Origin: Clostridiales bacterium
GTDB taxonomy: Bacteria; Bacillota; Clostridia; Oscillospirales; Oscillospiraceae
DNA length: 5,864 nt
Direction: 5' to 3'
Assembly (NCBI GenBank): GCA_029098065.1
Contig: JAQXNP010000014.1
Location: 1-5,864 of the forward strand
Shown: piece by piece, positions 3,542-5,410 of the stretch
How the letters are laid out: every line of letters starts with the position of its first letter
Numbering within the stretch: position 1 is the stretch's first letter
Made by a program: the position numbers and the translations under genes
Notes under the pieces: model-generated
The model's database searches: none
Told to the model about the DNA's origin: nothing
Seen by the model: only the letters and a program-made list of their open reading frames with translations

Positions 3542-4163
3542 TCCAACGCCTCCCTCCGCTCGTTCAGAACGGGCCGGCCCACCCGGCCCTGTATCTTCCT
3601 GTATGCCGTTCCAGTATACCCTCTCCGCCGAAAAAAGGGAAGGGGGTTTCTGATCCTGTCCTTCAAAATCCGCTGCCTGCCGGTTCCGCTTTTGGGCGTA
3701 TTTCCCGGACCGGTCTGCGCACGGTCTCCCGGGAACGGGCCGCGTTCATCAGGGTTCGGGCCGTGAAGAGGCTGTTTCATGTACCGTTTCCCGCAATTGA
3801 CTTCCGCCTCCGTGAACCCATAGCGGCCGGACAGCTTTCCCAGCTTCTTGCAAGTGGGAGAGCGGAAGGCCAGCCGGTCATCTTTCCCGTCATAGGGGTT
3901 GATGCAGGCGCGGGCCTGTGGGATGGCCGCCAGCATGGCGGGAGTCTCCGTCCCCAACACAATCACCGGCGCCTCGAACACATACCCCGGGATCCCGCCG
4001 CCTTTGGAAAGGCCGAAACCGGGCCGTTCTGCGGCTGCACCGCAAACCGTGATGATCAAATCTATCTGACTGGCGAACTTGCTGGCATCCGGTTTCTGTC
4101 CCGCCTTCCCCGCTTCATCATCACGTCCAGCGGATTGCGGCAGACGAACACCTCAAATTTCTG
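3508..4163 (-). pseudogene. Unrecognised coding-like remnant, frameshifted
   Basis: I do not recognise this protein. Minus-strand sequence from about 4163 down to about 3770 has strong coding character (regular G/C third positions, protein-like composition) but is broken into frames. The first reads RQKFEVFVCRNPLDVMM (4163-4116). The sense then continues in the next frame as DEAGKAGQKPDASKFASQ, IDLIITVCGAAAERPG and GYVFEAPVIVLGTETPAMLA, and on through ARACINPYDGKDDRLAFRSP, TCKKLGKLSGRYGF and EVNCGKRYMKQPL. One lost base near 4115-4121 (GTGATG-ATGAA) would explain the switch. The second frame stays open to a TGA at 3508, overlapping the start of trmO, but coding character fades after about 3770 and the candidate trmO promoter lies inside. 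Several Cys residues (in VCG, ACIN, TCKK, NCGK) could be structural or metal sites. There is no ribosome binding site or convincing start. It could be a decayed host or phage gene, or a gene broken by sequencing errors. Confidence 0.45.
3613..3641 (-). promoter_or_regulatory. Candidate promoter of trmO
   Basis: On the minus strand TATACT (3613-3618) lies 17 bp from a weak -35 TTCCCT (3636-3641). Transcription would start near 3606, about 65 nt before the trmO ATG. The -10 is good and the -35 poor, so an activator or another -35 is possible. It lies inside the tail of the unassigned open frame, which argues that this tail is not coding. Confidence 0.4.
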
Positions 4164-4399
4164 CCTTCCGGCTTCTGCTTCAGATATTCCTTGCCGGCCT
4201 TCTGCAGCGTAGTAACCGGATCAACCGGAGCACCTTCGAAGTGCAGCGCAGAGATGGCATTGAAAAGGCCTCGGGTGCTCTCCATGTGGAAGTTCTCCGG
4301 GGAGAGCTTAGCGATGACCTCGCCCACATGATTCGGCTCGTAGAGGATGGTGCCAAGGATGGTATACTCGATCCGCATCAGATTCGTGTAGTCAACCAT
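4121..4399 (-). pseudogene. DnaB-like replicative helicase, N-terminal domain only (truncated)
   Basis: The first 72 or so residues resemble the N-terminal domain of DnaB-family helicases: IEYTILGTILYEPNHVGEVI (10-29), LSPENFHMESTRGLFNAISA (32-51), then EGAPVDPVTTLQKAGKEYL (55-73). In DnaB this helical domain serves hexamer assembly and primase contact. The RecA-like ATPase domain with its Walker motifs is missing. After about residue 73 the frame reads non-homologous sequence and stops at codon 93 (TGA 4121-4123). A full DnaB is about 450 residues, so this is a fragment that cannot be a helicase. The ATG at 4397-4399 overlaps the stop of the upstream replication gene (TGATG), and GGAGG lies 7 nt before it, so the 5' end is intact. 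In the parent phage it would load or drive the fork together with the upstream replication protein. Confidence 0.75.
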
Positions 4400-4872
4400 C
4401 AAAGCACCTCCTCATCCTCGGCCCATCCGCTGCCGGCATCGGCCTGGTCATTCGGAGTGTCCAGCTCATCGGCGTCAGCCCATCGGGCGCCGTTGAGGAA
4501 AGTAGCCACATAAGGAATGCCAATGCCTCGCTTCCAGTCCTCCGTGGCCTTCAGCTTCACCAGCGCTCTTGCAATGGTGTCGATGAGAGCATCGTCAGGA
4601 TGGAGCTTGTCCCAGGCATCCATGGCCCGCTGTTTATCCTTTCGTCCGTCCTTTGGATAGAACTGCCAAAGCCCGGAGAACCGTTCTGGCTTCCAGTTTG
4701 GAGCCTCTCTCGGCTCTTTGCGCTTGTGCGCACGCGCGCCCCCTTTGGGGGTATGGGGGTTATTTATATTATTCTTATTCTTATTATTCTGCTTGCCGTT
4801 TTCGTCAAGACCCCTCTTGCAATCCGGGTGGTCGGTGTGGTATACTATGGGTGTTCTCGTGGTGGAAACCAC
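4399..4872 (-). CDS. Phage replication protein, linker and C-terminal domain only (N-terminal DNA-binding domain absent)
   Basis: The C-terminal part FSGLWQFYPKDGRKDKQRAM (65-84), followed by DAWDKLHPDDALIDTIARAL and ending with IGIPYVATFLNGARWADA (117-134), matches the domain that closes many Firmicute phage replication-initiator/replisome-organiser proteins (consensus like FW..YPRK..K..A..AW.KL ... P..P..WLN..RW). An Asn/Lys-rich linker (28-38) and a basic stretch (about 45-60) precede it. In relatives an N-terminal winged-helix domain of roughly 120-150 residues comes first. Here the frame is closed by a TGA about 15 codons above the only available start, a GTG at 4872 with a weak AAGGG, so that domain is missing. 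Its stop overlaps the helicase start (TGATG). The GTG falls inside the hairpin of a predicted opposite-strand RNA. It is either a truncated gene or a short form that keeps only the helicase/protein-interaction part. Confidence 0.65.
   Translation of the reverse strand: MVSTTRTPIVYHTDHPDCKRGLDENGKQNNKNKNNINNPHTPKGGARAHKRKEPREAPNWKPERFSGLWQFYPKDGRKDKQRAMDAWDKLHPDDALIDTIARALVKLKATEDWKRGIGIPYVATFLNGARWADADELDTPNDQADAGSGWAEDEEVL
4760..4790. repeat. Low-complexity AT-rich stretch (TTATTC-like repeat)
   Basis: A run of TTATTC/TTATTA units, in an otherwise GC-rich region, encodes the Asn/Lys-rich linker of the replication protein on the minus strand. Such tracts are prone to slippage. The reading frame nevertheless stays open through it. 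Confidence 0.55.
4817..4846 (+). promoter_or_regulatory. Candidate extended -10 promoter, opposite strand to the phage operon
   Basis: On the plus strand TTGCAA (4817-4822) and TATACT (4841-4846) are separated by 18 bp. The -10 is preceded by TGG, giving the extended TGnTATACT form. Start of transcription is expected at about 4851-4853. No plus-strand protein gene follows. An intrinsic terminator does, about 50-65 nt on, which is why I read it as the promoter of a small RNA. It lies inside the minus-strand replication gene. Confidence 0.5.
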
Positions 4873-4920
4873 TTGGCCCTTGACGGTGTACCCGCACCGC
4901 CAGGGGCCTTTTATCTTTCT
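4851..4920 (+). ncRNA. Predicted small antisense RNA (two hairpins, intrinsic terminator)
   Basis: Downstream of the extended -10 promoter the sequence folds into two adjacent hairpins. The first is GTGGT-GGAA-ACCAC (4859-4872), a 5-bp stem with a GNRA-type tetraloop. Two bases later comes a 14-position stem (4875-4888 with 4895-4908; 13 pairs including one U-G, one A-C mismatch) with loop TACCCG. A T-rich run follows. The predicted RNA is about 65-70 nt. It fills the only gap in the minus-strand phage operon, between the stop of the 86-residue protein and the start of the replication gene, and its first hairpin covers that gene's GTG. By analogy with plasmid countertranscript RNAs it could restrain replication-gene expression. 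That role is inference. I recognise no RNA family, and no protein-coding reading explains the arrangement. Confidence 0.5.
4875..4920 (+). terminator. Intrinsic terminator, plus strand
   Basis: GGCCCTTGACGGTG pairs with CACCGCCAGGGGCC (13 of 14 positions) and is followed on the plus strand by TTTTATCTTTCTT. On the minus strand the hairpin is preceded by A-rich sequence and not followed by T's, so termination is directional. Since no plus-strand gene lies upstream, it most likely ends the small RNA described above. Confidence 0.65.
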
Positions 4921-5171
4921 TCAACGAGTTCAAAGTGTATCACCTCCGCCATCGTGAGATTAATCCACTGCTCATTGACCTGCAGCACCGGCTTCCCCGC
5001 AGCAGCGGTATAGTAAGCATGAAAGGATGACCCATCTGCAGCCACCCAGTGCAGCCAGTAAGACCGACCAAAATGGGTAAGACACGCCTGACGAATGGAC
5101 GGGATAGTGAAGCCCTTAGATCTAATCAACCTTGCAAGGCTGGTTTTTGTTGCCCTTGGATAAAGCGCCAT
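4911..5171 (-). CDS. Hypothetical phage protein, 86 residues
   Basis: I do not recognise this family. The protein is small and soluble-looking, with no membrane segment or signal peptide. It has a basic N-terminal third (RATKTSLARLIRSKGF), then an aromatic-rich central part (GRSYWLHWVAADGSSFHAYY, 36-55), and an acidic end (EVIHFELVEER). The start is the ATG at 5169-5171, which overlaps the stop of the upstream gene (TGATG). GGAGGG lies 7 nt before it. It ends just before the hairpin region that separates it from the replication gene. Its place between an excisionase-like protein and the replication protein suggests an accessory early phage function. The basic start and aromatic core would suit nucleic acid or partner binding, but nothing specific can be claimed. 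Confidence 0.7.
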   Translation of the reverse strand: MALYPRATKTSLARLIRSKGFTIPSIRQACLTHFGRSYWLHWVAADGSSFHAYYTAAAGKPVLQVNEQWINLTMAEVIHFELVEER

Positions 5172-5410
5172 CAAACAACCCTCCTAATTACTCCTATCTG
5201 CTGGGGCTCCGGAGGCATGGCGTACCCGTTAGCCAGCAGTTCCATGACGGCATCGACATTGACCAACTTCTTGCGGCCGCAGCACACGACCGGCACCGCC
5301 TCGGCGCGGATCAGCGCCCGGATATAATGCAGGGTCACCTCAGTATCAGGGTCAGCCTGCTTGATTTCAGCCAGCACCTTTTCTGCTGTTCTCATTCTCG
5401 GCATTGTCAT
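5171..5410 (-). CDS. Excisionase/MerR-like small DNA-binding protein
   Basis: The 79-residue protein has the layout of small helix-turn-helix proteins common in Firmicute phages and integrative elements. A first helical segment (RMRTAEKVLAEIKQADPDTE) is followed by a turn and second helix (VTLHYIRALIRAEAVPVV, 25-42), then the wing-like GRKKLVNVDAVMELL (45-59). The pattern of a helix, then a short 'P-V-x-x-x-G-R-K-x-L-V-N' strand, resembles excisionase and MerR-type winged helices. Such proteins bind DNA to bend it for excision or to regulate early genes. The ATG at 5408-5410 overlaps the stop of the XRE gene (ATGA), with AAAGGAGG 9 nt before it; a second in-frame ATG follows two codons later. 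It overlaps the next gene's start by one base. With no integrase visible, an excision role is only an analogy. Confidence 0.7.
   Translation of the reverse strand: MTMPRMRTAEKVLAEIKQADPDTEVTLHYIRALIRAEAVPVVCCGRKKLVNVDAVMELLANGYAMPPEPQQIGVIRRVV

Follow-up and report, generated by a model that had tools for sequence, protein, structure and literature searches.

To our knowledge, few phage small RNAs have a clear, evolutionarily supported target. The OOP RNA of phage lambda, transcribed from pO, is in the available text of PMC3985674 and PMC5869508 a short terminated RNA that lies upstream of an initiator gene, runs against the early operon and exerts antisense control on a phage gene; it is likened to the present unit by position, not by sequence. 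OOP overlaps its target cII in cis, whereas the co-varying target described here lies 2.2–3.9 kb away and is matched by a 5′ seed. An OOP-like layout, between an upstream gene and the initiator gene and on the opposite strand, is seen in relatives of the unit; in the window (the whole 5,864-nucleotide stretch of DNA analysed) the initiator is truncated. The ArrA RNA of Bacillus subtilis dnaA is likewise an antisense RNA over the leader of an initiator gene in a Firmicute, but it concerns a host gene and a cis target, and the abstract of PMC12112137 mentions no partition-gene target. The P22 sar RNA (RF00262), also a small phage antisense RNA, differs in acting on antirepressor synthesis, according to the available text of PMC12197685. 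RNAII of plasmid pMV158 is presented in the available text of PMC4485353 as a small antisense RNA that inhibits translation and has an important 5′ tail; its target is the initiator gene repB, whereas the co-varying target here is parA. With plasmid rep countertranscripts the unit shares its antisense position, but its conservation points to parA. A mycobacteriophage region in which a non-coding RNA neighbours the partition genes parABS (PMC7157519) is similar in that arrangement but is needed for replication, and the available text does not mention a seed against parA. In the open-access literature, with subscription papers mostly outside the scope of the search, no antisense or small RNA directed against a phage partition gene was found.

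The unit occupies 4817–4920 of the window and lies in a decayed prophage, with the following parts and neighbours.

4817 to 4846, plus strand: predicted sigma-A promoter, from the sequence and a −10 box kept across loci
4817 to 4822, plus strand: −35 box TTGCAA, 18 bp from the extended −10 box TGG-TATACT at 4838 to 4846 (TG at 4838 to 4839, TATACT at 4841 to 4846)
4851 to 4920, plus strand: predicted small RNA of about 65–70 nt, from the RNA fold and a match to covariance model R1
4853 to 4862, plus strand: seed GUUCUCGUGG, whose counterpart in relatives is complementary to the parA start region
4859 to 4872, plus strand: hairpin 1, GTGGTGGAAACCAC, 5 bp with a GGAA loop, from the RNA fold
4875 to 4908, plus strand: hairpin 2, which is the terminator stem and bears at its apex a GU-N-CCCGC motif that is common among relatives, from fold and covariation
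4909 to 4921, plus strand: T-rich tract TTTTATCTTTCTT, which completes the terminator, from the sequence
4399 to 4815, minus strand: C-terminal remnant of a replisome organizer gene, N-terminal part and native start missing, from PHROG 270, relatives and alignment
4121 to 4402, minus strand: truncated N-terminal DnaB-helicase fragment, from Pfam DnaB
4911 to 5174, minus strand: small phage gene of 86–87 aa whose 3′ end meets the terminator, from family P0121–P0127

The initial annotation had read a TTGCAA, 18 bp, TGG-TATACT promoter, a 5-bp GGAA-capped hairpin and a terminator stem with its T-tract as a self-contained small-RNA unit opposite the replication operon. This reading held: all three elements were found where it had placed them, and the stem covaries in related phages. 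Judged by sequence, the unit has its own promoter and Rho-independent terminator, and we infer a 5′ end at about 4851–4853. RNA from 4851 to 4920 folds at −33.1 kcal/mol, whereas shuffled versions average −19.3 (z −4.5) and none of 200 folds as well; the terminator stem alone gives a z of −4.7 and the 5′ hairpin alone −3.1. A simple terminator scan of the window did not list the terminator at 4875–4908. Model R1 matches 4849–4916 at 71.4 bits, the window being among the 13 sequences used to build it. The apical GU-N-CCCGC motif (4885–4898 and relatives) is common to many members and is more than a terminator requires. Taken in isolation, the promoter is a weak match (9 of 12 positions), and five such sites occur in the window versus 1.8 expected from shuffling. 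Across 39 loci, window included, the −10 box agrees with TATAAT at at least five of six positions in 36, an extended TG occurs in 36, and 30 have a −35 box that matches at four or more of six positions. The promoter at 4817–4846 is therefore credible because of this conservation, despite its weak match alone.

The minus-strand open reading frame at 4399–4872 matches PHROG 270 (phage replication initiation proteins) at profile positions 147–260 of 383. Among organizer relatives, most of the 120 listed (of 512) are 225–272 aa long, mostly with an N-terminal HTH_36 domain, and in the alignment to them homology in the window starts only at about 4815. The gene has thus lost both its N-terminal part and its native start codon; the GTG at 4872, which had been taken as the start of the replication gene, is incidental and a by-product of the deletion. 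The prophage is considered decayed because its DnaB gene is also cut to an N-terminal fragment. The 4911–5174 protein family comprises seven database matches, one of them the window's own, and a Pfam search with this protein gave nothing above the cut-off. Single-sequence searches for relatives returned nothing for the truncated organizer among viral contigs, nor for the 87-aa gene among viral and genome contigs. To the left of the prophage lie a trmO-like gene (Pfam) and a gene which, as recognised from its sequence, we take to be pyruvate phosphate dikinase-like.

By sequence comparison, the unit at 4817–4920 belongs to a conserved small-RNA gene family of Oscillospiraceae prophages. A 164-base stretch of the window had no DNA match among the other 15 genomes of the genus. 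In a looser DNA search of 400 genomes of the family, the terminator hairpin was seen upstream of intact organizer genes; 293 genomes were counted in that search at E ≤1, most of the matches being short and probably due to chance. In genome contigs, 16 stretches matched a promoter-plus-seed pattern; among the 11 listed, the unit is present in 3 and the other 8 look fortuitous, and the remaining five lie on contigs of the same length as those of loci already in the set. The covariance model finds the unit in 54 of the 400 family genomes at E ≤0.01, and at E ≤0.001 in 39 of the 400 versus 3 of 390 others, from a class-wide draw of 391 genomes that takes in a few members of this family. Records with a name in which the unit occurs comprise metagenome bins of Oscillospiraceae or Clostridia, two faecal phage records and one Flavonifractor phage. 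An Rfam search with the window and eleven relatives, a check that had been proposed for the unit, placed no family above its gathering score there. The closest family was P22 sar RNA (RF00262), for which the best of the 11 relatives, L008, reached 29.4 bits against a gathering score of 43; in the window it had no match up to E 5.

In a MAFFT alignment of 13 units, 15 of 19 pairs changed on both sides, a value reached by none of 500 shuffles, in a set to which L005 and L019 were admitted by a script requiring the stem and most other members by a motif itself containing 4 bp of it. Sliding the pairing partners gave far lower covariation values. The compensatory changes anticipated for both stems are strong in the terminator stem and only weak in hairpin 1, which is paired in 57% of cells of this alignment, the loci differing in sequence; RNAalifold on the same 13 sequences predicted hairpin 2 alone and no hairpin 1. 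In a model-fitted set of 38, which leans towards structure, 68% of cells are paired in hairpin 1 and 93% in hairpin 2. On the small-RNA strand, 32 cells hold G·U and 10 hold A·C, an excess that favours this strand as the RNA.

The conserved 5′ end of the unit appears again at a distance of about 2.2 kb, where a parA-like gene starts. For this analysis 38 small-RNA loci were used (omitting L016, L030, L031, L102 and the viral L138 and L139). A parA gene lies on the organizer strand in 30 of the 38, at 2.2–3.9 kb and in 28 of the 30 within 2.2–2.8 kb; in the remaining 8 it was not found within the stretch fetched, some of these stretches being short. One example has the gene order organizer, DnaB, parA (AAA_31; PHROG ParA-like partition protein) and a parB-like gene, with parA and parB overlapping. 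The best run of complementarity covers the whole start codon in 23 of the 30 loci, over 10–18 nt with at most two G·U pairs, and in a few (L136, L191) it lies just upstream of the start; several predicted duplexes reach towards the Shine–Dalgarno sequence through hairpin 1. In 24 of the 30 the parA start outranks every other site in the downstream stretch as a whole, and in 6 it does not; in L188 and L190 the seed is interrupted by mismatches. Seed and target variants track each other, as with GUCCGCAUAGC (L173), GUUCUCAUCGC (L185) and GCCCUC (L183, L184), and GTG starts of parA are met by CAC in the RNA (L194, L196). In the relatives, the target is the start of an mRNA encoded apart from the small RNA, and the short seed complementary to this start co-varies with it.

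Seed matches of 13–17 nt were also seen at the starts of other phage genes (L143:674-928, L167:2323-2523, L168:2310-2510, L189:2980-4296), namely an XRE regulator, a 66-aa gene and a DUF3102 gene (in a locus in which no parA was found). In L161, L115 and L025 a second seed copy lies directly behind the terminator, 66–82 nt from the model's start. One prophage encodes an ORF2/G2P-type replication-associated protein (L166:5965-6765) about 2.9 kb past the end of parA.

The scores of own seed–target pairs sum to 366, versus a permutation mean of 242 (sd 10), and none of 20,000 permutations reaches that sum; with one locus per seed core (17) the figures are 203 versus 125 (sd 8), again with 0 of 20,000 and with the own target best in 13 of 17, although such permutation counts overstate independence because the loci are related. 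A score of at least 11 was obtained for 24 of 30 own pairs versus 4 of 6,000 shuffled seeds, and, within the stretches concerned, for 1 of 438 starts of other genes. Among loci with at least 3 kb downstream, 23 of 29 that have the RNA also carry parA, against 9 of 28 that lack it (p 0.0005; shorter loci, 2 with and 3 without the RNA, were omitted, as were L016, L030, L031, L102, L138 and L139).

Searches starting from the target were made in nine model-negative loci that carry parA. A new promoter–terminator unit was found in one of these, L222, where an exact TATAAT and a terminator accompany a 14-nt match whose sequence is quite different; no unit was found in the other eight. The approach was also applied to two phage records. 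For the Flavonifractor phage Cormatin, it gave as best site within 8.9 kb a 12-nt perfect match to the parA start, located behind TGTGCTATAAT, before a strong terminator and upstream of an annotated replication initiation gene. The covariance model gives this unit 35.1 bits. Phage record MT835558 has a 12-nt match with one G·U to a GTG start, behind TATACT; its unit and that of L222 have weak model scores (18 bits). Since Cormatin is nearly without hairpin 1, this hairpin is not essential to the family, and the GNRA (GGAA) cap that had been put forward as a feature is not conserved, hairpin-1 loops varying between loci.

Probably, then, this is a conserved prophage small RNA, predicted at about 55–78 nt, whose 5′ end would pair with the parA start of the same phage and likely block ParA translation. 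The antisense promoter would give rise to the small RNA, and in the cell its seed would pair over the parA start codon, often with the Shine–Dalgarno sequence as well; ribosome entry would thereby be blocked and ParA translation reduced. Where the two genes overlap, ParB would be expected to fall together with ParA.

The position of the unit against the organizer bears on two other accounts. Of 67 organizer places outside the window, 66 were examined (G069, at a contig edge, was omitted). The model matches 35 of these at E ≤1, all 35 antisense to the organizer, and 30 at E ≤0.01; weak among the 35 are L016 (E 0.94), which overlaps the organizer match, and L102 (E 0.48), and three partial opposite-strand matches of the same hairpin (window, L115, L132) are not counted among them. 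In 24 of the 35 the organizer-frame start codon lies 36–62 nt from the model's 5′ end, which puts the −35 box across from the organizer ribosome-binding site. The gene on the terminator side differs between the loci listed: in the window an upstream ORF shares 5 nt with the 3′ end of the model, and in the other loci listed the predicted 3′ overlaps range from none to tens of nucleotides, with different upstream genes.

Where the organizer gene is intact, the RNA runs antisense to the sequence immediately before that gene's start, and because of this a cis effect on the organizer may exist. The same observation speaks for a cis-acting countertranscript, similar to plasmid ctRNAs, that would pair with the organizer mRNA leader and lower replication, which the initial annotation had proposed as the main mechanism. 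Pure cis pairing, however, requires no conserved sequence and would not tie the 5′ end to the parA start, with which it co-varies instead. The predicted RNA moreover starts upstream of the organizer ribosome-binding site without covering it, organizer N-terminal sequences vary while the RNA persists (among the loci listed), and in L115 and L004 another small gene precedes the organizer. As the main mechanism this account appears rather unlikely, and the replication gene was probably the wrong target. Of the complementarity claimed for the RNA, that to the replication gene leader stands in intact loci, and that to the GTG start region stems from the deletion.

It is also conceivable, if unlikely, that the promoter acts as lambda pO does, opposing transcription tuning read-through into the replication genes and the RNA itself being secondary. 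The topology is that of pO and OOP between cII and O in the available text of PMC3985674, and the −10 box is conserved, but such a promoter leaves both the co-variation of seed and parA and the conserved RNA stem unexplained. It may act in addition to pairing with parA: the proposed control may be supplemented by an effect in cis, either on the leader of the organizer or, as at lambda pO, on read-through.

A shared DNA operator, with the motif at the RNA start and at the parA start bound by one phage regulator, was considered on account of the recurring 5′ motif, which occurs at a promoter start and at a gene start and has extra copies in some loci. This is very improbable. Differences between seed and target comprise 17 wobble-compatible transitions versus 5 of the opposite kind and 9 transversions (p 0.017, omitting L136 and L191, where the match is off the anchor); the position of the match with respect to the start codon also varies (L136, L191, L222), and the motif is no palindrome. 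A small leader peptide read through the hairpins on the operon strand is scarcely credible as the source of conservation: some loci can be read by eye as P-L-x-V-R-x-H in one frame, but each of the three frame classes is represented in the spacing from seed to terminator loop (by 11, 6 and 5 of the 22 scored loci), the pairing covaries, the G·U cells favour the other strand, and in loci whose seed has G (L166, L170, L063, L143) the ATG of the sense strand is changed to ACG.

Model matches also occur in other contexts. Those in L085, L087, L088, L090, L093, L094, L062, L064 and L065 lie upstream of genes that by eye resemble tyrosine integrases, on the opposite strand, and L086, L089, L092, L133, L134, L135 and L095 were set aside as well. 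In longer stretches of L085–L090 and L133–L135 (as L197–L205) and of L062, L064 and L065, parA was found only in L204 (L089), 1.6 kb away and without a seed match; a free search for complementary sites in the same loci minus L065 gave no match of at least 10 at a start codon.

For the copy in the window, a matching parA was sought in its own genome (89.7% complete) and not found. The extended seed TTCTCRTGGTGG has one other exact match in that genome, not at a parA, and of its four ParA-family matches the starts could be read in three, none of which resembles the seed. From its sequence, the window copy is probably an orphan: it has kept its promoter, seed and terminator beside a shortened organizer gene, and the assembly, from which a contig may be missing, contains no parA that matches it. 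Its remaining targets would then probably be only the parA genes of related incoming phages.

The module joins three phage functions: replication start, helicase and partition. Control of ParA as proposed could serve the partition of an extrachromosomal prophage or the timing of the lytic cycle. The unit is present in a named prophage, Cormatin of the laboratory strain Flavonifractor plautii YL31, which the available text of PMC10197239 lists among 13 induced prophages; the RNA predicted there would be about 55–60 nt long, would start near 31,885 of ON453905.1 and would run against the replication genes. The many phages provide natural matched and mismatched seed–target pairs, so the mechanism is testable without invented sequences. 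A more speculative idea, which we hold to be doubtful, is that the RNA is a phage incompatibility factor, locked by lineage to its own parA start and drifting into matching groups, with relics that provide immunity. If this were true, relic copies of the kind seen in the window would outlive their prophage and silence the partition genes of related incoming phages.
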